This document shows, piece after piece, positions 748-35,887 of a DNA stretch of 36,623 nt (positions are counted from its first letter, which is position 1; the number at the start of each line of letters is the position of its first letter). The notes below the pieces were generated by a model. The model worked only from the letters and a program-made list of their open reading frames with translations, was not told the origin of the DNA and did not search any database. The position numbers were made by a program, and so were the translations under genes. The stretch lies in NCBI GenBank assembly GCA_021409285.1, contig JAGFND010000010.1, positions 1 to 36,623 of the forward strand, written 5' to 3'. This stretch comes from Candidatus Methanoperedens sp. (GTDB taxonomy: Archaea > Halobacteriota > Methanosarcinia > Methanosarcinales > Methanoperedenaceae).

Positions 748-822
748 TTTTTTACCTCTTATGATGTAATCGTTTCGTAAATGGTTATAGTTATCTTAAG
801 AAAGAATAATTTAACAGAACCG

Positions 823-12508: not shown

Positions 12509-15388
12509 ATGAGAAAAGGAATTATATTAGGTATAGGAATTTTAATATCGCTGCTGGCGCTGGCAGGAACAGGAAGTGCAAAATGGGAGTATAATGCGAG
12601 TTGCGGCATTTGTCATACGGGTTTCCCGACACCATTAAAATCCACAGGTATTTTATTTAATGACACGCACAAATTTGATGGTATTTCAAAACCAGACTTT
12701 GGTACAAGCTGCAGCAATTGCCATATAGATCCTCATAATCAAACAGCTCCCCCAAATTTTGGCATGACTCGGCAGGGTCAGAATTATAGCATTATTCATA
12801 ATGGAATCAATACTTCTGGTTATGCCAGAACAGGTGTGAATTGTACCTACTGTCATGTCAACCCTAATGGCGGCGACTTTTCTTTGCGCAGCACAGGTAC
12901 AACCATGGAACGGATCCATAAATTCGATGGTGTCTCAATACCGAATAATGCCACAGGTTGTACAGTATGCCATACTGACGTAATGGAATTTCTTCCACTA
13001 ATATCAAATGGGTCGACCTACAATAGCACTCACAGGTACAATAGTAGTGTTCTGGCTTCTGAATTGCTCTTTTCTCCTGGATGCAGTAATTGCCATGTAA
13101 ATGCCATTATGGGAAATTTCACTCTGCTTTCAGGTACTCCATCATACCTGACATCTTTTGTTTGTAAAGACTGCCACAGGGCAAAATACGATAACTGGAC
13201 AAATACGATGCACCGCGTTGTACTCACCGTGAATACATCAGCTGCAGCTATGAATCTTACCCTGCCTAATAGATTGAACTGGTCAAGGAACGTATCGTAT
13301 GTTGTTATAGGTAAAACAAATTTCCAATATATGAATGAATCAGGTTATTACAACAGGACATATTACGTTGTAAATGGTACCAATGTTTCTAATAGTGGTC
13401 TATATACAAGCGGAGCCCGCCACACTACAGGCTATAATGCAACGCGCGGGAACCAGAGCAATATGCCAGGCATTGTGGGATCATGGAATGAATCTGGAGT
13501 CGGCTGTGAGAGGTGCCATCAACCGGCAGGCAACGGGCATCAGGTAGTTGTGAATTATTCGGGATTGCTATGTGAGCAATGCCATGAAACCGGCTGGGAA
13601 TCAAGTGGGCATTCCACCGTATCCTCAAGGCATGCGACAGACAGTTGCTCGCTATGCCATGGGTCAACAAGCAATTATACTAATGTGAGTGCGGACTCTT
13701 CAGGAGTTTCATGCGCTGTGTGCCACAATCCTCACAATACGACAGATGACCAGTATGGACAGCTTTTCGCGCCAGGTGGTTTCAATGCAACAGTAATGGC
13801 TAGTGTGAAAGATGAGAAATTGAGCTTTTTCAATTCCACGGCAAGCAAAGCAGCCAGTACAGACATCTATGATTCACTTATCCAGACGTTGTTATTCCCT
13901 GGCCTTGATTTCACAAGAAAGTACGAAACCTACGGTTCAGCAGCAATAAATGTAACCGGCCGTCCGGCATCTGAAGTACTTTGCTCAATGTGTCATTACA
14001 AACATGGTTTGGGGCCCCGCTACACAGCAAACGTCAGCTTTACACATGGCAGGAACTCAACCTCAAATCAATCTAAGTGGGCTACCTGTACGGACTGCCA
14101 TTTTGCAGGAGCAGGCGGCATGAAGAACCATTCTCTCGATATAGAGAGTGCTACGAGCTACCCAACCAGTACATGCTCGCGCGGCACAGAATGCCATGTG
14201 ACGAGTGAACAGAACCAGAGCTTAAGCAATGATTCATTAGTTCCGGTGATAAGAGAATGGGAAGAAAGCTTACACAATGACAAAGTAAATGGGCAATTTT
14301 ACAACAACAGCACCAATTATCAAAACAGCTCTTGCAGCAAATGCCATTCTCCATTCAACTGGAATCCTGCTAACCAAAGCGATGTGGTAGCAGCTGCTGA
14401 TTTTAAAGGCATCACATGCGCGGTTTGTCATAATCTCCACGATATGGGTGACTGGATCACAAATAATGGCAAGGCTTATGCATGGTTCAATCGGGACGCA
14501 TTTGTGAGTGGTACAACTTACATCCGCAATTACTCGGTCATGGCAAACACAACAGAGCTATGCGGCAACTGCCATTCGAACATCAGAATAGGTAGAGAAG
14601 GGCCTGGGTGGGCAAGTTCTACTTCTACAACCCCTATTTCTCCACATGGCTTTCCCGCAAAGGATGTGTTTGTTGGTTCGTGGAAGCAGTCAAGCCTGCT
14701 GAACTTTGAGTGTATTGATTGTCATATGTATATCAATAAGACCAGTGGCACAGGAGGAATATTGAACGATTCCGGGAAGATAACAGGACATAGTTTCGCA
14801 ATGAATGAAACAGGTCTTCAGAACACCACAAAATGCTCAGGCTGCCACGACGGGACAAACTTTGGCACAATTGCAGGCGTGATTGAAGAGATAAAGGCGG
14901 ATACCCATACGAAATGGAATTCAACAAACACAACGGTTCTAAATGCTTTGGACTATATTAAACGCTACACGGGTGAAAAGAACCTGAGCCGCGATCAGAT
15001 CGCCCAGGCATACTGGAAGCTCAAGATGGTGTCATCAGATGGAAGCTGGGGTGTGCATGACCCGGTAGGGACGAAAAAACTACTCGAAGAGGCCTCAACA
15101 CTGGCGATCGCTGCCAATGCTTCTCTTGGCAGAGGAAATACCACTGAGCAATTATATACAGGGTGGAACGTTAAGTCACTCAATGAAACACCTTCAGTGA
15201 CAGCACCGGTATCGGTAATGTCCTCTGTGATCGGTAACATAAGTGTGGTCTGGGGTTTGAATGCCTCCACACAAACATGGTTACTATATGACCCGGCTGG
15301 ACCAACGGCGTTGAATACACTGACGAGCATGGTTAAGGGTGAAAGCTACGAAATAAAAGCAATAAATAATTGTACGTGGGTGGTATAA
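12509..15388 (+). CDS. Secreted multiheme c-type cytochrome (17 CxxCH + 1 CX5CH)
   Basis: The 959-residue protein starts with a signal peptide (residues 1-24, ending G-S-A) and contains 17 CxxCH heme-binding motifs between residues 32 and 780. It also has an unusual C-S-R-G-T-E-C-H at about 556-563 (five residues between the Cys). His residues for axial ligation are abundant. The last 180 residues have no heme motif. Residues from about 900 (TGWNVKSLNE through WLLYDPAGPTALNTL to KGESYEIKA) resemble a surface domain common in archaeal exported proteins, of the 'W-x-x-Y-D-P' type. More than twenty N-x-S/T sequons suggest glycosylation. No membrane anchor is seen. It heads a plus-strand group with a surface protein and a second cytochrome. 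The inferred role is extracellular electron transfer; the electron partner is unknown. Confidence 0.92.
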   Translation: MRKGIILGIGILISLLALAGTGSAKWEYNASCGICHTGFPTPLKSTGILFNDTHKFDGISKPDFGTSCSNCHIDPHNQTAPPNFGMTRQGQNYSIIHNGINTSGYARTGVNCTYCHVNPNGGDFSLRSTGTTMERIHKFDGVSIPNNATGCTVCHTDVMEFLPLISNGSTYNSTHRYNSSVLASELLFSPGCSNCHVNAIMGNFTLLSGTPSYLTSFVCKDCHRAKYDNWTNTMHRVVLTVNTSAAAMNLTLPNRLNWSRNVSYVVIGKTNFQYMNESGYYNRTYYVVNGTNVSNSGLYTSGARHTTGYNATRGNQSNMPGIVGSWNESGVGCERCHQPAGNGHQVVVNYSGLLCEQCHETGWESSGHSTVSSRHATDSCSLCHGSTSNYTNVSADSSGVSCAVCHNPHNTTDDQYGQLFAPGGFNATVMASVKDEKLSFFNSTASKAASTDIYDSLIQTLLFPGLDFTRKYETYGSAAINVTGRPASEVLCSMCHYKHGLGPRYTANVSFTHGRNSTSNQSKWATCTDCHFAGAGGMKNHSLDIESATSYPTSTCSRGTECHVTSEQNQSLSNDSLVPVIREWEESLHNDKVNGQFYNNSTNYQNSSCSKCHSPFNWNPANQSDVVAAADFKGITCAVCHNLHDMGDWITNNGKAYAWFNRDAFVSGTTYIRNYSVMANTTELCGNCHSNIRIGREGPGWASSTSTTPISPHGFPAKDVFVGSWKQSSLLNFECIDCHMYINKTSGTGGILNDSGKITGHSFAMNETGLQNTTKCSGCHDGTNFGTIAGVIEEIKADTHTKWNSTNTTVLNALDYIKRYTGEKNLSRDQIAQAYWKLKMVSSDGSWGVHDPVGTKKLLEEASTLAIAANASLGRGNTTEQLYTGWNVKSLNETPSVTAPVSVMSSVIGNISVVWGLNASTQTWLLYDPAGPTALNTLTSMVKGESYEIKAINNCTWVV

Positions 15389-15418
15389 TGCATATGCCTA
15401 TCTTTTTGGAGTGATAGA

Positions 15419-16468
15419 ATGAATAAAAACTTCTTATTTATTATTCTATTGATTTTTATTCCATTGGCACAGGCCGAACCGCCTGTAACTTCTTATTGGG
15501 GTTATGTGACATTTGACGGTATCACAAAAGCAAATGCTCTGGTAACCGTCCTTGATTCTTCAGGCAATACAGTCGCCAGTACAACGAGTATCACTGATGC
15601 CACATATCGGGTCATGGTGCCATGGGATGATTTGAATACTCAAACGGATGAGGGGGTTGTGAGCGGTGAAACCATAACATTCATAGTGGATGGAAAAACA
15701 GCAACCTCCAGAACAATAGACCCTAGGGGGTCAAGTATCAGGATCGACCTTTCAGCAAGTTCTTCAACAACATCCTCCTCTTCTGGAGGCGGCGGAGGTA
15801 GCGGTGGAGGAGGGGGCGGCGGAGGCGGTGGCCCTTCTGGTGAGCTCTTCTCAAATATCCTCGTTAAAGAGAAATACGATCAGTTCATTTTCAAGGACAC
15901 AGCTACGTCGTATGCTTTCACAAATAAGAGCAATCCCATTGTATTCGTGAACATAACAGGCAATGTCAATGCTGGCCAAATTAATACTGCGGTCGAAGTA
16001 TTGAAAGACATTTCCAATCTTGCAAAAAGCAAACCACCGGGAATTGTTTATATGAACGTCAACATCTGGGTTGGAACATCGGGTTTTGCAGCACCAAAAA
16101 ATATCAAAGAAGCCATCATCAAATTCAGGGTGGATAACTCATGGATGAGCGACAAAAGTATTTCAGGCAGCGATATAGTGTTGATGAGATGGGATGGAAG
16201 CACGTGGGAACAGCTTGAGACGAAGGAATTGTCAGGAGAAAACATTTACACATACTTTGAAGGAAAGACAAATGCCTTCTCACCATTTGCCATATCCAGT
16301 ATAAGAGTGCCAGAAGTTTTTGCAGTGACCACGGCTTTGCCTGAAGGAAAGACAGCTGAAAAAGAGGGAACACCTGCACCATCAACCACGAAAAAGGCAT
16401 CCGGGTTCGGTCTTATTATTGCCGTTGCAGGATTGACAGCAGTAATTTTAAGAAAGAGAGGCAATTAG
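15419..16468 (+). CDS. PGF-pre-PGF surface protein with Gly-rich linker and PGF-CTERM-like tail
   Basis: The 349-residue protein begins with a signal peptide (1-19, ending A-Q-A). A small beta domain of carboxypeptidase-regulatory or Ig-like type (about 25-112) follows, then a Ser/Thr stretch and an almost pure glycine linker (about 123-138). The middle (about 140-305) matches the PGF-pre-PGF domain found in methanogen surface proteins (VFVNITGNVNAGQI, FRVDNSWM, MRWDGSTWEQL). The end is a Thr/Pro/Glu spacer followed by SGFGLIIAVAGLTAVILRKR, a PGF-CTERM-like signal with the usual Pro replaced by Ser. Such tails are cut by archaeosortase and the protein is lipid-attached. It lies 30 bases after the first cytochrome, so the two are cotranscribed and it may hold or space the cytochrome at the cell surface (inference). 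Confidence 0.85.
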   Translation: MNKNFLFIILLIFIPLAQAEPPVTSYWGYVTFDGITKANALVTVLDSSGNTVASTTSITDATYRVMVPWDDLNTQTDEGVVSGETITFIVDGKTATSRTIDPRGSSIRIDLSASSSTTSSSSGGGGGSGGGGGGGGGGPSGELFSNILVKEKYDQFIFKDTATSYAFTNKSNPIVFVNITGNVNAGQINTAVEVLKDISNLAKSKPPGIVYMNVNIWVGTSGFAAPKNIKEAIIKFRVDNSWMSDKSISGSDIVLMRWDGSTWEQLETKELSGENIYTYFEGKTNAFSPFAISSIRVPEVFAVTTALPEGKTAEKEGTPAPSTTKKASGFGLIIAVAGLTAVILRKRGN

Positions 16469-16536: not shown

Positions 16537-19500
16537 ATGAAAAAAACTCTGTTCATAGCAGCATTACTTACATCAATTGCATTGATGAATGCGGGCAGTG
16601 CTCTTGAATGCATGTATTGCCACCAGTTTGATTGGATAGAATTCCCCCTGATCAACATATCTTTTTTCGGGGTTCATGCGGATGTAAATTCAACCGATGG
16701 AGTGGGAAATCTCACAAGTGCTGATTGCATTGCATGTCATTATACAGCCAATACTCTGGTATTCCATGGTTCTTCTGTATCCACATATACATGTGAAGAT
16801 TGCCATATCCGTGGAGTAGTTCCGTCTGCCCCGAGAATCTATAATCATAATAGGAACGCTAATGTGTCTGTAACGGCTTCTTGCGGTGATTGCCACAACA
16901 AGACCTCAAATCTGTTCAGGTTTAGTGCCAATTCAAGCGCGGCCCACTATGGAAGGAATCCAAGCTCAAGCCTACCTTCGGGTGAGCAGTATTGTGGTTT
17001 TTGCCATGACAATTCATCATCAGTTTACAGTGATGTCATGCAGAACCAGAATAATATTATGATAGGCAAACACACATCCGGTATAATTAATCCTGGCCAT
17101 CCTGCCGGCCATCCAGATTGCACAAGCTGTCACGGGACCGACAGCCTCCACGGCCCAAACCTGACAAAGCCCGTTCTTGATTCGGGATTCTGTAATAATT
17201 GTCATAAGAATGATCCACTGAAAAAGGACATGCATGCGGGAAAATTAGAATGCATCCAGTGTCATACGGATACGGCTAACGATATTCATAATATTAAATA
17301 TTTACTTCAGGACGGAACATATCGCAGCATAAATGCTACCGATTGCTATGATTGTCACGGATATCCATTTTCTTCCTTCAGAGTGCCATTTTCCACCGCT
17401 AACTGCACGACCTGCCACCTGGGGAACGGTGTAATAAAGTTTGCACAAGCCCCACGTTTTCCTTCGCCGATGAAGCACAGCTCAAATCCGGTTTCAGGTG
17501 GACTTTGGAACGGTTCACAACCAGCATATTGGGGCGATCAGGTTAGCGCCTGCAAATATTGTCATGGAGATACCCTTCATAATACAAATGCTCTGGGAAA
17601 TATTTCGAACATCAAATCCGGGAACGCTTTTAACCAGAGCATAACAAATTCAAGTTTCTGGTGTGCTAATTGCCATTACCAGGGTGTTCCATCAGGAAAT
17701 TATTCATATAATGGTACATCATTTAATCCAGTGCCGCCTGAAATAAAGAACAATTCTGGGCTTGTTCCGTTTAAGGCAAGTGATGGGACTTCTTTCTATA
17801 ACCATTCCCTTGGCGGATATTCCGATGCAACGTGCATTCTGTGCCATGGGGCTAATTTCCCGACAACAACTTCTTTTTTTATCCATAACGTCAGCACCGG
17901 CGGAGGTGGGCGGAATTGCATCTCATGTCACGATATTGGAGGAGGGGGTGCACCTTTAGATAGAAGGGTAGATGTTGTTTCGTTCAATAATAGTGTGCAT
18001 TATAGCCTGAATGGCGGCGGTAACGGAGCATGCTGGGCATGTCACGGGGATGGGAATGGAAGCGAGAACGCCCAGCCTGCTGGAGGCCATCCGCGAAATT
18101 ACAGAACCCCAAAAAACTGCAATAACAATGACTGCCATTCGATATCGCAGTCCCGCTTCAAGGAGCCAATGGTGTATTCACATTTCCTGAATGCGAGCAG
18201 GAACAGCAATCCCGGTAATGTTACAGATTTTAATATTACAACATCAGCTGGATGCGAAATATGTCATATTAACAGTATTATAAAAGATGATGACATTCCG
18301 GACGTTGCAAAAGTATCGCATTATGGATCAAAACAAGATCTCCTGGATTCTTTCAATTGCATATATTGCCATCTTGATGAAGATAACAGCGAGAGATGGG
18401 GAAATGCAACTCTGATAAATAAGAACCGGACTGTGCTTACACAACTTGAAAAAATGAAAAATAATTTCATTCTTTTTGAGGGTGATAGCTTCTATCTTGG
18501 TGAAGGATATTTTTTGAAATTAGTCGAGATTTCAAATAATAGGGAGGAAGCTTTTATCCAGATATTTCATGAAGATAATAAAGTGGACGAAACATCGCTT
18601 GGGCCAGGTTCCGAATATATATACGAAAAGGAGATAACTATCGATAATTCAACTTTCAAAACCCCTGCACTCATCCTGAACATAACTTCAATATTCAAAG
18701 GAAATAGGAGCTTTGTTCAATTCGAGGGATCAAGATTAAGAAAGATCCATACAGAAAATGAAAGCAGGAACAGCGCATGTTATGCCTGCCATCTGTATCG
18801 GTATTCAGGCAATAAACAAAGATATCTTGTGATTGACAAGGAATATAAAGAAAATGCCGATAAAGATATATTATATCTTTCCAGGGTTTTTCTGGATTTC
18901 AAGTCAGAAAATAAGAACAAGATATACTTTAATGATGAAGATTATGTATTCAACCAGACAGAAATCGATTTTGGAAAACACATATCTTATTCTTTTCTTC
19001 AAAAAAGCATGAAGGAAAGGGAAACATGGGATATCGCAGACGGTTATTCTTTAAAGATCAATGAGGTAAGCACGGATAGCGAAAAGGTATGGCTGGATCT
19101 GGTAATAAATAATAGCATCGTTGATGACAGGGTGGTCGCTCTTGGCTCAGAATATAATTATACTCCAGGGATCAAATATAATGGATATTCCGAAAGAAAT
19201 GTCACTATATTTTCCGCAACAATTTCTTCGATCTTCCAGGGAAGTCCGAATTTCGTTATACTTAAAGATGTTATGGCAATATCTCCTGATATCTTCAAAA
19301 TCAATGGGAATACTACTATTTTTGGTTATAACAGCAGCTGGTTAAGAACCAATGATACGATAACGGTGGGAAAAATACCCCCGGATTTTCATTCACCCAA
19401 CATGTTCACAGATCAAAGGAAATGGGGAGATTGCGTCATTTGCCATGATTCATCAAACAACATAAGGATCAAAGATGTTGATGCAATTTCATCCAGGCTG

Positions 19501-20208
19501 GGAAAACACCTTCATTTGAATGAAAATGTTTCGAACAGATCTTTTTTATCTGATCCTATAGACAAAGCATGCTGGGCATGCCACACAAATGGGACGGAAC
19601 CGGATATGCATTCCCCGACATATATTATTCCAAGGGATTGTAAATCATGTCATGTATATCAATTAGCTCCTGTTTTTGGCGCGATAAATATCAGTGATGA
19701 GCCACATGCATCTGAAAAAAACTGTGGCTCCTGTCATCTTGTCAAATCTCATGTTTTAATAAGGTATCAGGTATCCCCTGTAATAAATGAGGCGTCAGTA
19801 TCACAGGGAGTTATCAGTAGAAATATAACAGTTGAACTTTCAGCAAAAGCAAGTGCCGGATATGAAATGAAAATACGTGCAGCAGAGTATTTCCTGGATA
19901 ACATAGGCAATCCCGGAACCGGAACGCCTCTTATTCCATTAGATGGGAAATTCGATTCACAAAATGAAGAACTGACCGCAAATATCAATACAACTGATAT
20001 TCCTGTCGGAGAGCATGTAATATTTGTTCATGCAATGGAAAGGAATAATAGATGGGGTGACTTCTATACTCTCTATCTGAATGTTACAATACCAAAAAAA
20101 TCACAATCAATAGGAACAAACATGATATCTACAGGTTTAAGCATTGCGGTATTCTTGATTGTATTGGCTGCGGCATATCTGATGATTACGAGAAGATCCT
20201 GGAAATAA
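16537..20208 (+). CDS. Giant membrane-anchored multiheme cytochrome with S-layer-type domains (22 CxxCH + 1 CX4CH)
   Basis: The 1223-residue protein has a signal peptide (1-23). It carries eighteen heme sites in residues 25-612, of which C-N-N-N-D-C-H at about 528 is the CX4CH variant, and further CxxCH motifs at about 748, 966 and in the 1000-1070 region. Two blocks around 640-735 and 810-925 carry no heme. They share GDSFYLGEGYFLKLVEI / WDIADGYSLKINEVS and a later VxLGSEYxY, the pattern of the Methanosarcina S-layer duplication domain. An Ig-like domain (about 1085-1190, AEYFLDNIGNPGTGTP) precedes one membrane helix (about 1198-1217) and a short basic tail. The order fits a protein anchored in the membrane whose heme wire passes through the S-layer, as described for ANME-2 archaea. 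Function in extracellular electron transfer is inference from family. Confidence 0.93.
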   Translation: MKKTLFIAALLTSIALMNAGSALECMYCHQFDWIEFPLINISFFGVHADVNSTDGVGNLTSADCIACHYTANTLVFHGSSVSTYTCEDCHIRGVVPSAPRIYNHNRNANVSVTASCGDCHNKTSNLFRFSANSSAAHYGRNPSSSLPSGEQYCGFCHDNSSSVYSDVMQNQNNIMIGKHTSGIINPGHPAGHPDCTSCHGTDSLHGPNLTKPVLDSGFCNNCHKNDPLKKDMHAGKLECIQCHTDTANDIHNIKYLLQDGTYRSINATDCYDCHGYPFSSFRVPFSTANCTTCHLGNGVIKFAQAPRFPSPMKHSSNPVSGGLWNGSQPAYWGDQVSACKYCHGDTLHNTNALGNISNIKSGNAFNQSITNSSFWCANCHYQGVPSGNYSYNGTSFNPVPPEIKNNSGLVPFKASDGTSFYNHSLGGYSDATCILCHGANFPTTTSFFIHNVSTGGGGRNCISCHDIGGGGAPLDRRVDVVSFNNSVHYSLNGGGNGACWACHGDGNGSENAQPAGGHPRNYRTPKNCNNNDCHSISQSRFKEPMVYSHFLNASRNSNPGNVTDFNITTSAGCEICHINSIIKDDDIPDVAKVSHYGSKQDLLDSFNCIYCHLDEDNSERWGNATLINKNRTVLTQLEKMKNNFILFEGDSFYLGEGYFLKLVEISNNREEAFIQIFHEDNKVDETSLGPGSEYIYEKEITIDNSTFKTPALILNITSIFKGNRSFVQFEGSRLRKIHTENESRNSACYACHLYRYSGNKQRYLVIDKEYKENADKDILYLSRVFLDFKSENKNKIYFNDEDYVFNQTEIDFGKHISYSFLQKSMKERETWDIADGYSLKINEVSTDSEKVWLDLVINNSIVDDRVVALGSEYNYTPGIKYNGYSERNVTIFSATISSIFQGSPNFVILKDVMAISPDIFKINGNTTIFGYNSSWLRTNDTITVGKIPPDFHSPNMFTDQRKWGDCVICHDSSNNIRIKDVDAISSRLGKHLHLNENVSNRSFLSDPIDKACWACHTNGTEPDMHSPTYIIPRDCKSCHVYQLAPVFGAINISDEPHASEKNCGSCHLVKSHVLIRYQVSPVINEASVSQGVISRNITVELSAKASAGYEMKIRAAEYFLDNIGNPGTGTPLIPLDGKFDSQNEELTANINTTDIPVGEHVIFVHAMERNNRWGDFYTLYLNVTIPKKSQSIGTNMISTGLSIAVFLIVLAAAYLMITRRSWK

Positions 20209-20244: not shown

Positions 20245-21015
20245 CTAACTATCAATCTCTCTGCATTTCCTTAGCATTTCCTCAAAAGTATATTTTTCTG
20301 GCATTATTTTGACCGTTATCCCGGATTCCGATAAAGTCTCAGCAGTTGGCTTTCCTATCGCTGCAACGGTTTTTTCATTCATGATCCTGATAATTTCATC
20401 TTTTGCATCCATTTCATCGGCAAGTGCAATGAAATTCCTGACCATCATTGTACTTGTGAAGGCAAATATATCGATTTTGCCTGCAAGCGCCTGCTCCATC
20501 AGCTTCTTATGCCTTTCATCCCTGGGGCTGATTATCTGGTAGACCTGGGTTTCATGCACGACTGCTCCTTTCCCGATAAGCCCCCTCACAAGTTCTGGCG
20601 CCCCATGACTGCTGCGTGCTATTTCGATGATAGCCCCTTCAATTCCTGATAGCTTTTCAACAAGCCCTTCCGAACTGTACGATTCAGGAACGATACTCAC
20701 TCTTATTCCATTTCTTATAAGGGCTTTTCTTGTTTTGGGGCCAATAGCAACGACCTGTGTCTTATTGAGCTGTTCGATGAAATCATCGACCATATTCAAT
20801 TTCAAAAGTGTGAATTCAACTCCGTTCGCACTTGTGAAGATCACGTAATCTGCTTCTCCCTCAAGGATCCGGCTGGCAAAAATCTTAAAATCAGGATCAG
20901 TCCTGTCGACCACATCGATCATGGGCGCTGTAATAGTCTTAAAACCCATAGAAACAGCAAGCTTGACTGATTCTGCAAGATACCCAACAGGTCTCATAAT
21001 CGCTATTACTTTCAT
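20245..21015 (-). CDS. hemD: Uroporphyrinogen-III synthase
   Basis: The 256-residue protein fits HemD, which closes and inverts ring D of hydroxymethylbilane to form uroporphyrinogen III. Family features are the two-lobed layout, MRPVGYLAESVKLA at the N-terminus, DYVIFTSANGVEFTLLKL near 76-93, VAIGPKTRKAL, and the C-terminal lobe FAFTSTMMVRNFIALAD and VAAIGKPTAETLSESG. Sequence conservation in this family is low, but the context settles it: it follows cobA by 17 bases and ends the hemL-hemC-cobA-hemD unit. It converges with the big cytochrome, 36 bases away. Confidence 0.9.
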   Translation of the reverse strand: MKVIAIMRPVGYLAESVKLAVSMGFKTITAPMIDVVDRTDPDFKIFASRILEGEADYVIFTSANGVEFTLLKLNMVDDFIEQLNKTQVVAIGPKTRKALIRNGIRVSIVPESYSSEGLVEKLSGIEGAIIEIARSSHGAPELVRGLIGKGAVVHETQVYQIISPRDERHKKLMEQALAGKIDIFAFTSTMMVRNFIALADEMDAKDEIIRIMNEKTVAAIGKPTAETLSESGITVKIMPEKYTFEEMLRKCREIDS

Positions 21016-21032
21016 GATCAGAAATGTGAATT

Positions 21033-21776
21033 CTATATCCGGCCAAGTTCCCGGTGGAGTTTTACAACATCCCCTATGACAGTTATCGCAGGAGCTCCCA
21101 CCTTTCTTTGTTTGCAGAGTCCCACGATATCGGCTAATGTTCCGACAGTGACCCTCTGGTCAGGACGTGTCCCTTTTTCAATGACTGCAACAGGCGTGTC
21201 AATGGATTTACCATTCTTGATAAGTTCTTTCACATTGTGTTCCAGCATGCTCACACCCATAAGAATGACAAGTGTCCCTTCAAACTTAGCAAGAAGTTCC
21301 CAATCAAGACGGGTTTCTTCTTTTGTGGGGTCCTCGTGGCCTGTGATAAAAGTGACCATTGAAGCATAATCACGGTGAGTAACAGGAATTCCTGCATAGG
21401 CCGGTACAGCTATGGCTGATGTAATACCAGGCACTACCTCAATCTTTATCCCTTCTCTTGCAAGCGCCTGCGCTTCCTCGCCTCCGCGTCCGAAAAGATA
21501 CGGGTCGCCGCCTTTTAATCGTACAACGATCTTGCCTTCTCTTGCTCTTTTCACAAGCAATTCATTGATCTGCCATTGTGATAGCCTGTGATCTCCGGCA
21601 TATTTTCCCACATCTATCTTCTCAGCAGAATCCGGAAGCATGCTCAGTATCGCTTCCCCCGGAAGCTGGTCATACAGGATGACATCTGCGCTTTCGATAA
21701 GCCTTTTTGCCTTTATTGTCAATAGTTCAGGGTCGCCAGGACCTGAGCCAACAAGATAAACTTTTCCTTTAGACAT
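21033..21776 (-). CDS. cobA: Uroporphyrinogen-III C-methyltransferase
   Basis: The 247-residue protein is a SUMT, which uses two S-adenosylmethionine to methylate uroporphyrinogen III to precorrin-2, the branch leading to siroheme, cobalamin, F430 and, in this lineage, heme b. Motifs are VYLVGSGPGDPELLTIKA at the start, DVGKYAGDHRLSQ, VVRLKGGDPYLFGRGGEEAQAL and PGITSAIAVPAYAGIPVTHRD. There is no fused CysG-type dehydrogenase/ferrochelatase domain, so that step must be encoded elsewhere. Its start overlaps the end of hemC by eight bases, showing tight translational coupling. Confidence 0.95.
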   Translation of the reverse strand: MSKGKVYLVGSGPGDPELLTIKAKRLIESADVILYDQLPGEAILSMLPDSAEKIDVGKYAGDHRLSQWQINELLVKRAREGKIVVRLKGGDPYLFGRGGEEAQALAREGIKIEVVPGITSAIAVPAYAGIPVTHRDYASMVTFITGHEDPTKEETRLDWELLAKFEGTLVILMGVSMLEHNVKELIKNGKSIDTPVAVIEKGTRPDQRVTVGTLADIVGLCKQRKVGAPAITVIGDVVKLHRELGRI

Positions 21777-22719
21777 GTTTTCCTCTTTTTGCCGCGAACG
21801 TTTTCACTGCTTCGTCAACGAGCGCTCCTCCTCCTATCTGGTATAGGGCGTTCCCAATGCGTTTTGCTTCCTGCACATATTCGGCAGGGTTTATAAATTC
21901 ATCTATTTTTACGCATCGTTTCCCGTCCACCGAAAGAACTTCAGTACGTACATGTATTTTATTTCCTTCTGTTCGTGCAAAAGCGCCAATGGGAACAAGG
22001 CAGCCACCGCCAAGGATTCCGATTATTATTCGTTCAATACGTGTTTCAAGGTGCGTCTTTTCATCATTCAATTCCATGGCTGCGATTTGGGCATCTGTAC
22101 CCTTTTTTGTAACTATGACAACTGTTCCCTGGTTAGCAGACGGGACAAAATCGTCTGGATCGAGGCGTTCTCCTTTCAGATCCCATTTCAACCTCTCAAG
22201 TCCTGCTTCGGCAAGTAAAATACCATCATATTGCCCTTCCTTAAGTTTTCTAAGACGCGTGTCTATATTTCCGCGCAATTCCTTTACAATTAAACCTGAT
22301 CTGAATCTGGATAGCTGGGCACGTCTTCTCAGGCTTGTAGTTCCAATGATCGAACCTTCAGGAAGGTCTTTTAATTTTGTATCGCTGCGCGTAAGCAGGA
22401 AATCATGAGGTGAGTCGCGTTTCAATACCGCTGCTATAACAAGTTCCGGTGGTCGTTCTGTGGGAACGTCTTTCATGCTGTGCACAGCGATATCTATCTC
22501 ACCTGCAAGCATTGAGTCATCGATCTCGCGTACAAAAACCCCGAAACCCTGTACTTCATGCAGCGGCCTGTCGGTGAACGTATCACCTGACGTTTTGATT
22601 ATTTTTATTTCAGTATCTACACCATTTTTTGCGAGGAGATCTTTCACAAAGTTTGCCTGGGCAAGAGCAAGCTTGCTGCCTCTTGTCCCTATGCGCAATG
22701 GTTTTTGGCTATATTTCAT
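21769..22719 (-). CDS. hemC: Hydroxymethylbilane synthase (porphobilinogen deaminase)
   Basis: The 316-residue enzyme polymerises four porphobilinogens into hydroxymethylbilane. Conserved features are [14 protein letters not shown] near 9, HSMKDVPTE with catalytic Asp 84, [27 protein letters not shown], and [13 protein letters not shown] with Cys 240, to which the dipyrromethane cofactor is attached. The length is normal. The start ATG overlaps the hemL stop by four bases (ATGA), so both are one transcription and translation unit. The long run of conserved motifs leaves little doubt. Confidence 0.96.
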
Positions 22720-23981
22720 TTCAGGTTCCTTTGGTAAGTTTCCATGGTTCTTTCTATGTCGTCTTTCGAATGGGCAAGGGACAGGAAGTTTGTCTCAAAC
22801 TGTGACGGAGGCAAAAAGATCCCGTCATTAAGCATTTTTTTGAAAAATGCATTGAATTTATCCGTATCGCATTTTAGAGCTTCCCGATAATTATAGGGCA
22901 TAGACCCGAAGAACACTTTGAACATGCTTCCCACACCGCTAACGCTGCAATCCGATCCAAGATCAGTTATGATATCTGATAGCCCTGCTCTTAACGAATC
23001 ACCCGCGTCATTTACTCTATCATGAACGTTCTCTTTTTTGAGCGTGTTGATCATTGCAAGTCCTGCTGTCATCGAAACCGGACTTCCGTTAAATGTTCCT
23101 GCCTGATAAACAGGTCCAGCCGGTGAAATTTTCTCCATTATTTCGCGCTTTCCCCCTATCACTCCGATCTGAAAACCGCCTCCAAGGATTTTTCCCAGGG
23201 TTGTCATATCGGGCTTTATACCGTAATACTCCTGCGCTCCGCCCATGGCAAGCCGAAAACCCGTAATTACTTCATCGAAGATCAATACAACATCATTTTC
23301 TTTTGTTAATGCACGAACCTCTTTAAGGTATCCGTCTTTTGGCAGGATCGGCCCGATATTCCCAAGCACTGGCTCCATAATTACTGCTGCCACATCATCT
23401 TTATATACTTCAATGGCTTCTGTCATGGCCTCAATATCATTATATGGGATTTGAAGTGTATTTTTCGTAAAATCCTTCGGGACTCCCAAAGAGTCTGGTG
23501 TGCCCAGGGTGGTTGCCCCGGATCCTGCTTTTACAAGCACGGCATCATGAGCACCGTGAAAGCCACCTTCTATCTTAATAAATTTGTTCTTCTGGGTGAA
23601 ACCTCTTGCCGCACGTAATGCTCCCATTGTTGCTTCTGTTCCTGTGGAGACAAATCGAACCATATCGATACCGGCATAAAGTTTGATTATCTCTTTCGCA
23701 AGTGACACTTCAAGTTCGGTGGGCGTGCCGTAGAGCCATCCATCCGCCAATTGTTTGATCACTGCTTCTTTGATGGCAGGATAGTTATGGCCAAGGAGCA
23801 GCGGCCCATAACCCATTACATAATCGATATAATCGTTCCCGTCAATGTCTGTTATCTTTGAACCGTTTGCGCGTTTTGTATAAAAAGGATATGGTTTTAT
23901 GGCGCGGACGGGACTGCTGACACCACCTGGAAGGACTTTTTTGGCGGCTTCAAATAATTTTCTTGAATTCTCTGTCTTCAT
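22716..23981 (-). CDS. hemL: Glutamate-1-semialdehyde 2,1-aminomutase
   Basis: The 421-residue PLP enzyme converts glutamate-1-semialdehyde to 5-aminolevulinate, the first dedicated tetrapyrrole precursor in the C5 pathway. The PLP-binding Lys is in [11 protein letters not shown] (Lys 264). Other family features are GGVSSPVRA near 20, [18 protein letters not shown] near 110-126, EGGFHGAHD and [11 protein letters not shown]. It is the first gene of the hem unit. hemA (glutamyl-tRNA reductase) and hemB (porphobilinogen synthase), needed for the adjacent steps, are not in this window. No strong ribosome binding site precedes the ATG; a TATA box about 30 bases upstream suggests a nearly leaderless transcript. 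Confidence 0.96.
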
Positions 23982-29138: not shown

Positions 29139-29594
29139 TTATTTGATATTGAACTTAACTCCTATTTTGAACAGCCTTTTTGTGGGCAGGTTCCTTGCCT
29201 CACACCCTGTTTTTTCAATTATATTCTTCAATATCTCCTGCAGCCTGTCCTCATTCTCGGCTGAAAGCGTAAACCAGATATTGTAATTAGCAGGCCTGAG
29301 ATAATTGTGGGACACTTCCTCATATTCATTTATGATAGCTGCAACTTCATCCACTCTTTCAGGCGACACTTTCATTGCGACAAGTGTGCTTACGCCTCCA
29401 GTTTCTCTTGTGTTGATGATGGGACCGATACGCCTTATTGCGCCTTCTTTCTGAAGCTGCTTGATACGTCGTATAACTTCTTCTTCTTTTAACCTGAGGC
29501 TTTTCCCCAGTGTATGAAATGGTCTGTTCACCAGCGGGAAATCAAGCTGAATAGCATTCAAGATCTTCTTATCCAGCTCATCCATTGAGATCAT
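29139..29594 (-). CDS. Siroheme decarboxylase subunit (AhbA/AhbB family)
   Basis: The 151-residue protein is a Lrp/AsnC-like heme-pathway enzyme: [19 protein letters not shown] at the start, [25 protein letters not shown] as helix-turn-helix remnant, [32 protein letters not shown], and [11 protein letters not shown] at the end. AhbA and AhbB form a dimer that removes two acetate carboxyls from siroheme, giving 12,18-didecarboxysiroheme. I cannot decide which subunit this is, and the partner subunit is not in the window. An upstream extension to 29618 is possible, but the ATG at 29592-29594 overlaps the ahbD stop (ATGA), which is the expected coupled start. Confidence 0.85.
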
Positions 29595-30646
29595 GGTCTC
29601 ACAGGCATATACACACAATAAGGCTCTTCATCCAGATAATCACCGGTTCCGGCATAAGCACGTGCACGACAGCCGCCACATACGTTCTTGTACTCGCATT
29701 TTCCGCATTTGCCTTTTAGCAGCCCGAGTTGGCGAAGGTCGCTAAACACTTTTGACTTTTCCCATATCATTTTAAAAGGTTGTTTCCTGATATTCCCTGC
29801 AAGAGCCGGAAGATATCCGCATGGATAGACATCACCTCTGCTGGAGATAAAACAGAATGCAGAACCTCCAAGGCAGCCTTTAGTCATGGCTTCAAGCCCA
29901 TGTGTCTCAGACGTTATTCTTATCCCTTCGGCTTTTGCCCGCTGGCGCATGATCCTGAAATAATGCGGGGCGCATGTTGCTTTCAGCTGGATGTTCTTGT
30001 CTTTGCTTTTATCATAAAACCAGTTAAGGACGCGTTCATATTCTTCGGGTGGTATTTCTTCAGATTCAATTTCCTCTCCTCTTCCTGTCGGGACAAGAAG
30101 GAATATGTGATGAGCAGATGCTTTGAGTTCAATTGCGAGATCATAGATGCGCGGGATATCTGAAAGGTTCCTCTTTGTAATGGTCGTATTTATCTGAAAG
30201 CTTAAACCTTCTTTTTTCAGGATATCGATACCAGAAAGTGCCGCCTCAAATGCTCCTGGTTCGCCCCTGAATGTATCATGCATCTCTTTTGTTGCACCGT
30301 CTATGCTTATGCTGACCCTCTGTATCCCAGCTTCTTTTAATTTTTTGGCTATGGCGGAGGTCAGTAGCGTACCATTCGTTGCAAGCACAACGCGCAGGCC
30401 GTGCCCTGTCGCATAATTCGCGATTTCATAAACATCAGGACGAAGAAGAGGCTCGCCTCCGGTAAGGATCAGGATTGGTCTGTATTCGACCAGTTTATCT
30501 ATAAAATGTTTTGCCTGCTCCGTGGATAATTCATCGGGTGAAGGCTCTTTGATCGCAGATGCCCTGCAGTGGATACATGCGAGATTGCAGGCATTCGTAA
30601 GTTCCCATGCAATGAGTCTTGGAGGTCTTATGGTATTTTCTTTCAA
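29591..30646 (-). CDS. ahbD: Radical SAM heme b synthase
   Basis: The 351-residue protein carries the radical SAM triad C20-x3-C24-x2-C27 in [16 protein letters not shown] and the [10 protein letters not shown] block. It shows family-specific stretches [53 protein letters not shown] and a C-terminal Cys cluster [18 protein letters not shown] for a second iron-sulfur cluster. These fit AhbD, which decarboxylates Fe-coproporphyrin III to heme b in the siroheme route; the related AhbC is less likely. The start is TTG (30644-30646), preceded by GGGCGAT; no other start lies before the first Cys motif. It is coupled to the siroheme decarboxylase subunit by an ATGA overlap. Confidence 0.9.
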
Positions 30647-33492: not shown

Positions 33493-35594
33493 ATGGATGG
33501 ATCGATAAACCAGTTTCCTGAACAGGCAGCAAGAGATAATATTGATAAACAGCTACATGAGGCAGGATGGGTTGTGCAGGATAAGGATAAAATTAACTGG
33601 AATGAAAGTATTGGAATTGCCATCCGTGGATATCAGACTGATGCTGGTCCTGCCGACTATGTATTATTTATCGAAAAAGAACCTGTTGGATTAATAGAGG
33701 CAAAAAAGGAAGAAGAGGGATTAAAACTCATATCTCATGAACCTCAAGCGGAAAATTACGCAACAAGTAAGTTAAAATTCCTTGATAACGACCAGCTCCC
33801 GTTTATTTATGAAAGTACGGGAACTTTAACCCGATTTACGGATTACAGGGATCCAAAACCGCGTTCAAGACCGGTATTTACTTTTCACAGGCCTGAAACT
33901 TTCAAAGCATGGCTCAAGGAAGGGAAATCATTAAGAGCAAGACTGCTGGATATCCCCGATCTTCCAGAATACAAGTTAAGAGACTGCCAGATAAAAGCAA
34001 TAAACAATCTTGAGAAATCCTTCAAAGAAAACAAGCCAAGAGCTTTGGTTCAGATGGCCACAGGTGCAGGTAAAACCTACACAGCAATCACTTCTGATTA
34101 CCGTTTACTGAAATTTGCCGGAGCAAAACGCATATTATTCCTGGTTGTCACAAAGAACCTCGGAGAGCAGGCAGAACAGGAATTTATGGCATATCAGCCA
34201 TCTGACGATAACCGTAAATTTACTGAATTATATAATGTTCAAAGGTTGCAGTCAAACTATATTTCACCTGACAGCCATGTATGCATTTGTACTATCCAGA
34301 GGCTCTATTCTATTTTAAAAGGTGAAGAACTGGATGAAGAAACCGAGGAGAAGCGGGAGGTTAATTGGGAACCAAAAGAACCAATGCCGGTTGTTTATGA
34401 TGCAAAAATACCGATAGAAATGTTTGATTTTATTGTAATTGATGAATGCCACCGTTCCATTTACAACCTGTGGAAACAGGTACTGGATTATTTTGATGCC
34501 TTTCTTATCGGATTAACAGCAACACCGGATAAAAGAACATTTGGTTTTTTCAATGAAAATGTGGTGAGTGAATATTCCCACGAGGAAGCTGTGGCAGATG
34601 GTGTAAATGTGACATATGACGTTTATATAATTGAAACTGAAATCTCACAACATGGAGCAAAGATAAATGCCAATGAGTATGAAGACCTGTTCATTTCACT
34701 TGCAGGACGCCTTGCCAGACTGGAAAGACAGCTTACTGACCAGGAAAAAGAAAAATTTGAAGAAAAGACAAAAGGAAAGAATTTAAGTGAAACAGCCAAA
34801 GACCTGTTGAATGCTTTTAATCCTGATAAGATCGAAGAAAGAGCGAACATGCTGAAGGAGGAAAATCCTGGGATAACACCAGCTCAGGCTCTTGAAATGG
34901 CAAAGAAAAGCCTGGGCAAAACAGCCAGTTCGATCTTTAACGGAGAACTTAATGAATACATTGAAAATATCCGAAAGGTTCATAAACTGACATTGTAAAT
35001 ATTGACAATGTTACAAAAGCAGAATGGGGAAAAGATGCTGTTGAAAAAGCCACAGAAATCGTAAATGATTTTTCTATGTATATGAAAGAGCATAAGGATG
35101 AGATCGTAGCGCTTAGCATTTTTTATAATCAGCCATATCGGCTAAGAGAGTTGACTTCCAGTATGGTTAAAGATGTTCTTGAAAAATTGAAAATGGATAA
35201 GCCACTGCTTGCGCCACTGTACGTATGGCAGGCTTACGAACAACTTGAAGGGGTGAACGGGAAAAGCCCAAAAGATGAACTGATTGCTCTTGTTTCCCTT
35301 ATCCGCAGGGTAACAGGTATGGATGATAAACTGACAGCCTATGATAAAACAGTTGACAAGAATTTCCAGAAATGGGTGTTTGACAAACAAGCCGGAGCAT
35401 TAAAATTCAATGAAGAGCAGATGAACTGGCTCAGGATGATGAAAGAACATATTGCCACAAGTTTTCATATTGAGGTGGATGATCTGGACTACACGCCGTT
35501 CGATGCACATGGAGGGCGTGGTATGATGTTTCAGCTTTTTGGGAATGGAATGAATAAGGTGATTAATGAAATGAATGAGGCAATGGCAGCATGA
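33493..35594 (+). pseudogene. hsdR: Type I restriction endonuclease R subunit (hsdR), missing helicase lobe 2 and frameshifted
   Basis: The N-terminal nuclease domain (AIRGYQTDAGPADYVLF and IEAKKEEEG, catalytic D/E-x-K near 56-72), the Walker A VQMATGAGKTYTA and DEAD-like IDECHRS with GLTATPDKRT are present. After TEISQHGAKINANEY the sequence jumps to EDLFISLAGRLARLERQL. In intact proteins about 250 residues, the whole second helicase lobe, lie between them. The frame then ends in HKLTL and a TAA at 34996-34998, while the neighbouring frame continues with NIDNVTKAEW to MNEAMAA and a stop at 35592-35594. Adding one G near 34989 would join both. Two lesions mean it cannot translocate DNA. No hsdM or hsdS is present. 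Confidence 0.85.
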
Positions 35595-35887
35595 AAAAGA
35601 AAATTGACCAGATTATCATGAAGCTTCGAGAAAATAGGCATGTTCTTGAAGAAAAATACGGTGTAAAAAACCTTGAAGTCTTTGGATCCTATATTCGCGG
35701 TGAACAGAAAAAAGGTAGTGACTTAGATATCCTTGTGGAATTTTCAAAAACGATTGACTTATTTAAATATATTGAACTTGAAGAGTTCATGAGCAAGAAA
35801 CTTGGTGTTAAAGTTGATCTTGTAATGAAATATACTCTAAAACCAAGGATAAAGGACAGAGTATTGAAAGAGGCAATTCCTGTATGA
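35591..35887 (+). CDS. MntA-type nucleotidyltransferase (antitoxin of HEPN/MNT pair)
   Basis: The 98-residue protein has the minimal nucleotidyltransferase layout: VFGSYIRGEQKKGSDLDILVEF near 30-51 with the G-S and D-x-D residues, then MSKKLGVKVDLVMK with the third acidic residue. MNT enzymes pair with HEPN ribonuclease toxins and inactivate them by adding AMP units. Its start overlaps the hsdR stop (ATGA), and its own stop overlaps an ATG of a tiny frame that looks like the beginning of a HEPN gene. The HEPN toxin itself is absent here. It would be an orphan antitoxin unless its toxin is elsewhere. Confidence 0.85.
   Translation: MKKKIDQIIMKLRENRHVLEEKYGVKNLEVFGSYIRGEQKKGSDLDILVEFSKTIDLFKYIELEEFMSKKLGVKVDLVMKYTLKPRIKDRVLKEAIPV

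Follow-up and report, generated by a model that had tools for sequence, protein, structure and literature searches.

A 23-heme S-layer cytochrome of Candidatus Methanoperedens with a probable mosaic origin and two copies of one S-layer subdomain

Introduction

The release of methane is held back to an important extent by archaea that consume it anaerobically, and S-layer cytochromes have been proposed as the route by which electrons leave these cells. Chadwick et al. (2022) described S-layer/cytochrome fusions in ANME, their C-terminal helices and an S-layer conduit model, and stated that in every ANME S-layer cytochrome the linker between the S-layer blocks has just one heme motif (PMC9012536). 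The same paper classifies the ANME MHC type A proteins, a class that goes back to McGlynn 2015. For Methanoperedens, a 23-heme S-layer cytochrome has been reported that is differentially expressed between growth on an electrode and growth on nitrate (Ouboter et al. 2024, PMC10874420), and Ca. M. manganicus expresses a 22-heme S-layer protein at a high level while it reduces Mn(IV) (Leu et al. 2020, PMC7082337). Some Methanoperedens genomes are without any S-layer cytochrome (PMC7327174). Low expression of the S-layer cytochrome has been reported under Fe(III) and nitrate conditions.

Here we analyze a window of 36,623 nucleotides from a Candidatus Methanoperedens genome (contig JAGFND010000010.1) that encodes a 23-heme S-layer cytochrome. 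The analysis confirms a known design with tight conservation and adds two points: the outer heme arm appears to be exchangeable while the S-layer passage stays fixed, and both S-layer blocks are copies of one subdomain. The first-pass annotation of this DNA was right in outline and is partly supported, although that outline is already published; the same-subdomain duplication and the mosaic are absent from it and are modestly new.

Results

A conserved surface cytochrome with 23 heme motifs

The open reading frame (ORF) runs uninterrupted from an ATG start to the stop codon at its end and encodes a protein of 1223 amino acids (Table 1). Pfam matches in the protein are PF07752 (two stretches), MtrC/MtrF-like and cytochrome c7. 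The host genome contains mcrA, and those of its relatives that carry a name are assigned to Methanoperedenaceae or Candidatus Methanoperedens, which identifies the host as Candidatus Methanoperedens (ANME-2d).

The motif count reproduced the 23 heme motifs of the first-pass annotation, 22 CxxCH plus a CX4CH at residue 528, and these account for all cysteines of the protein. The first motif is at residue 25, directly after the predicted signal peptide. All 23 motifs are kept in 12/12 full-length orthologues, a retention far beyond chance; all but one of the 12 come from the same genus, and the exception belongs to a different genus in the family. Twenty-three non-motif histidines are also invariant in the 12 orthologues, including His 1160 in the Ig-like domain. 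In the wider set of 30 aligned sequences, the ten motifs between residue 461 and the C-terminus occur in 30/30 and the non-motif histidines 488, 518, 549, 595, 738, 952, 991, 1025, 1057 and 1072 are kept in 29-30/30. On the basis of this conservation, these ten residues are candidate distal ligands for the ten hemes of the C-terminal cassette, and the heme between the S-layer blocks is probably bis-His with His738. The CX4CH is very probably a functional site because it is present in all 30 sequences. The 23-heme protein is a well-conserved, real surface protein of a methane-oxidizing archaeon.

Table 1. Features of the S-layer cytochrome gene and its neighbors, in window coordinates
Feature	Residues	Position	Strand	Basis
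Multiheme cytochrome with S-layer blocks and membrane anchor, whole gene		16537..20208	+	Translation, motif count, Pfam, orthologues
Signal peptide (predicted)	1-24	16537..16608	+	Sequence; N-termini alike in 11 orthologues
N-terminal heme arm, 15 CxxCH, lineage I type	25-~505	16609..18051	+	Orthologue alignment, tree
Mosaic breakpoint zone (predicted)	~490-515	18004..18081	+	Sliding identity; same region in L020
CX4CH motif	528-534	18118..18138	+	Kept in 30/30 family members
S-layer block 1, PF07752 positions 109-201	641-731	18457..18729	+	Profile, hhalign, AlphaFold2, Foldseek
Linker between S-layer blocks, His738 and CxxCH 748-752		18748..18792	+	Both invariant, 30/30
S-layer block 2, PF07752 positions 111-216	822-926	19000..19314	+	Profile, hhalign, AlphaFold2
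Membrane-side four-heme cluster	CxxCH at 966, 1012, 1035, 1063	19432..19737	+	30/30
Ig-like beta domain	~1082-1184	19780..20088	+	AlphaFold2 pLDDT mostly 78-92; Foldseek
C-terminal transmembrane helix, basic tail	~1197-1222	20125..20202	+	Full AlphaFold2 model; hydrophobic sequence
959-aa multiheme cytochrome, 17 CxxCH, upstream syntenic partner		12509..15388	+	Motif count, Pfam
PGF-pre-PGF domain protein, weak PGF-CTERM tail, upstream syntenic partner		15419..16468	+	Profile searches, synteny
hemD, uroporphyrinogen-III methyltransferase (SUMT), hemC, hemL; heme/siroheme synthesis, adjacent		20245-23981	-	Profile searches
AhbD (heme b synthase), nearby		29591-30646	-	Profile searches

Two S-layer blocks related to one subdomain

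Both blocks match the PF07752 profile, block 1 with E = 1e-8 and block 2 with E = 2e-15, and the two stretches have a total score of 83.9 bits (cut-off 30). AlphaFold2 modeling of residues 600-975 gave beta blocks at 644-734 and 822-923 with pLDDT values of about 80-96. The only PDB entries retrieved by Foldseek at E <= 0.001 were 3u2g (E = 3e-8) and 3u2h, which are the DUF1608 S-layer domain of Methanosarcina acetivorans MA0829. The S-layer fold is also backed by a profile match to 3u2g (E = 2e-7). A phmmer search of the PDB with block 1 alone returned no significant match, which made profile comparison necessary. These results bear out the first-pass proposal of a heme wire fused to S-layer domains, both in the assignment of the two blocks to PF07752 and in their beta fold. 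The same annotation placed an Ig-like domain and a membrane anchor after the blocks, and both were recovered. The Ig-like region is a confident beta domain with Foldseek matches that include CARDB, FnIII-like and NPC2 folds, and a Pfam scan of this region returned no family. The anchor is a C-terminal helix in the full-length model.

The relationship between the blocks was analyzed by hhalign. Compared with the S-layer proteins encoded in this genome, both blocks hit one and the same part of the unit (E = 1.5e-14 and 1e-12), and they also align with each other (E = 3e-13). The native S-layer unit of this genome had no internal repeat by sequence in hhalign. Because both blocks match one stretch and each other, the cytochrome carries a duplicated single S-layer subdomain; on these alignments, which alone set the subdomain boundaries, the blocks are copies of one subdomain and not two different halves of one unit. 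The other subdomain of the DUF1608 unit was not detected by a profile search of the cytochrome, so a complete lattice unit was not found. TIGR01567 aligns weakly from residue 767, and a diverged remnant of the rest of the unit may lie around residues 760-815. Each block thus shares the sequence and fold of one subdomain of MA0829 (PF07752/DUF1608), but MA0829 is a lattice protein and not a cytochrome, whereas the cytochrome repeats the one subdomain and the rest is undetected by profile.

Motif positions place heme sites both before and after the S-layer blocks, as had been proposed. The heme motifs that the first-pass annotation saw between the blocks are a single motif, and the arrangement that it considered unusual is published as universal in ANME (PMC9012536). 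The linker CxxCH was universal in our alignment as well (30/30 family members). In two other archaeal families, the linker CxxCH is found in all S-layer modules checked, and where a module is complete, a further motif precedes the first block and another follows the second. The single-linker-heme arrangement is the rule, since it extends to the modules of these two further families.

A mosaic of two S-layer cytochrome lineages

Sequence comparison shows a mosaic ORF, with the first ~500 residues from one S-layer cytochrome lineage and the remainder from another. Identity to the lineage I orthologues is about 52-76% over most of residues 76-525 and mostly 25-55% beyond, whereas for lineage II the values are mostly low ahead of residue 450 and rise to about 45-70% behind it. 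The tree of the N part nests the protein in lineage I (SH-aLRT 96), and the tree of the C part disagrees and nests it in lineage II. The AU test rejected a C part constrained to lineage I (p = 1e-90) and, for the N part, a lineage I without the 23-heme protein and L020 (p = 1e-5); constraining the N arm with the non-lineage-I rows gave only p = 0.026. Only 13/30 rows aligned in the heme 270 region, the same number as the 11 lineage I sequences together with the 23-heme protein and L020. The locus is of the lineage I type: five lineage I genomes share its upstream gene pair. The gene arose when two S-layer cytochrome lineages recombined a short way upstream of the CX4CH.

L020 (G022:C33), a protein of 1535+ amino acids, is a second, independent mosaic with its boundary at the same place. 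Its identity to lineage I is about 70% on the N-terminal side of the boundary, and its identity to lineage II is about 90% on the C-terminal side. The N arms of other lineage II proteins group with a third lineage in the tree, and N-arm exchange therefore seems to be recurrent.

Two S-layer cytochrome genes joined during metagenome assembly would also give a mosaic. The source genome is a metagenome-like draft of 246 contigs and the two lineages share about 60% identity near the boundary, both in favor of such a join, but we regard this origin as very improbable. The reading frame is single and uninterrupted, and the genome search reports no second full S-layer cytochrome as a possible parent. 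No other sequence in the tree exceeds 62% identity to the C-terminal half, which is thus not a copy of a known one, and the independent mosaic L020 shares the boundary position.

Recombination is the preferred origin, and we give about even weight for and against a more general scheme built on it. The scheme combines a fixed membrane-anchored S-layer cassette, which starts near residue 461 and holds ten hemes with ten candidate distal histidines, with N-terminal heme arms that would be exchangeable. Recombination would swap these arms at a preferred boundary a short way upstream of the CX4CH. The S-layer part would consist of one subdomain in two copies that are separated by a heme, and for this reason it would be a purpose-built passage through the S-layer rather than an ordinary lattice subunit.

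Comparison with described S-layer cytochromes

The 23-heme protein is of the published ANME MHC type A kind, as assigned by its features. It shares with type A the S-layer domain, the single linker heme motif and the C-terminal transmembrane helix, its 22 CxxCH and one CX4CH fall within the 20 to 80 heme motifs of that type, it is encoded in an ANME genome (mcrA; Methanoperedenaceae kin), and it is without an N-terminal peptidase M6-like domain (no Pfam peptidase match). It differs from type A in its origin as a recombinant of two lineages and in that both blocks match one subdomain. S-layer blocks, a linker heme and a C-terminal helix are shared with ANME MHC type B as well. Membership in type B was rejected because the peptidase M6-like N-terminal domain and the CcmF neighbor are both absent here; the scanned neighboring genes contain no CcmF or CcmF2.

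By their descriptions, the proteins of PMC10874420 and PMC7082337 share the genus, the heme count and the S-layer fusion with the 23-heme protein. The lineage I orthologues have exactly 22 CxxCH and one CX4CH. The 23-heme protein differs from the two described proteins in that its C-terminal half is lineage II. A much larger S-layer cytochrome, with 113 CxxCH and 7 CX4CH in a 5615-aa frame (L102, G008:C49), matches a protein with 113 hemes that has been described in Ca. M. manganireducens (PMC7082337).

A proposed path for electrons through the S-layer

The 23-heme protein is probably an S-layer conduit cytochrome of ANME-2d, of the type A kind, that carries electrons out through the S-layer. 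After export by means of its signal peptide, the protein would be anchored in the cell membrane through the C-terminal helix. The helix would fix the orientation, and therefore four hemes would lie on the membrane side, one between the blocks and eighteen beyond. The order from the membrane outwards would be the Ig-like spacer, the four-heme cluster under the S-layer and the two beta blocks with the linker heme. The 18-heme arm would be outermost, with the hemes at 499-608 beside the S-layer module and the others further out. Methane oxidation would feed electrons into the membrane-side hemes, from where they would pass through the plane of the S-layer via the linker heme and exit along the N-terminal arm to an external acceptor.

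The full-length AlphaFold2 model (A1, 1199 aa) was built without hemes and its heme regions have a mean pLDDT of 48, which makes them unreliable. We can therefore only infer heme binding, heme spacing and electron flow, and the same strength applies to heme attachment, orientation and position in the S-layer. Electron conduction through the S-layer is plausible and is the best explanation that we infer. A continuous heme wire and its spacing are unproven on such a model, and the one linker heme, between beta blocks of roughly 100 residues, may be too distant from its neighbors for fast tunnelling. Insertion into the S-layer lattice is not assured because the protein carries two copies of one subdomain and not a complete lattice unit. 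The Methanoperedens genomes without an S-layer cytochrome and the low expression under Fe(III) and nitrate also count against the conduit.

A repeated subdomain that falls short of a full lattice unit would also suit beta blocks that are only adhesive or scaffold modules, with the heme arm held outside and fed by other cytochromes and not by its own linker. The 17-heme cytochrome encoded two genes upstream and a related paralogue that is split into two secreted polypeptides within block 2, in two archaeal families, are consistent with this arrangement. We nevertheless consider it unlikely, since the invariance of the linker CxxCH and His738 (30/30) is hard to explain if the linker heme carries no current. 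The linker CxxCH also occurs in the S-layer modules checked from two further families, and hemes are found on both sides of the S-layer module. Conduction through the S-layer is the reading that we prefer, and residues about 461-1080 are a concrete construct for structural work.

Split paralogues

In at least six Methanoperedens genomes (L167 3094-7974, L168 4124-9049, L169, L170, L171 and L172), the coding sequence of a paralogous S-layer cytochrome is divided between two abutting genes. The first gene encodes 12 or 18 hemes and ends with a TGA at the equivalent of residue ~902, inside block 2. The second resumes at ~889-906 and encodes 16 hemes, its own signal-peptide-like N-terminus and a C-terminal helix. 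A similar split occurs in another archaeal family (L174-L176). One continuous chain across the S-layer is therefore not obligatory in this superfamily.

Neighboring genes

The 17-heme cytochrome and PGF-pre-PGF pair is conserved beside the lineage I orthologues in L082, L083, L085, L089 and L090, and the PGF-pre-PGF protein may be a partner of the S-layer cytochrome. Lineage I loci repeatedly combine a large cytochrome, a PGF-pre-PGF protein and the S-layer cytochrome as a trio (here with the upstream genes at 12509-16468). The same trio is found at lineage II loci (L091 3661-8905; L092 3874-9124) with a much less similar cytochrome of 28-29 hemes. Genes for heme and siroheme synthesis lie downstream on the opposite strand (Table 1), in keeping with the conduit reading. 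Further along the forward strand, pieces of a type I restriction enzyme R-subunit occupy two frames (33493-34998 and 35076-35594) in what looks like a split gene, followed by an MntA-like antitoxin (region 33493-35887).
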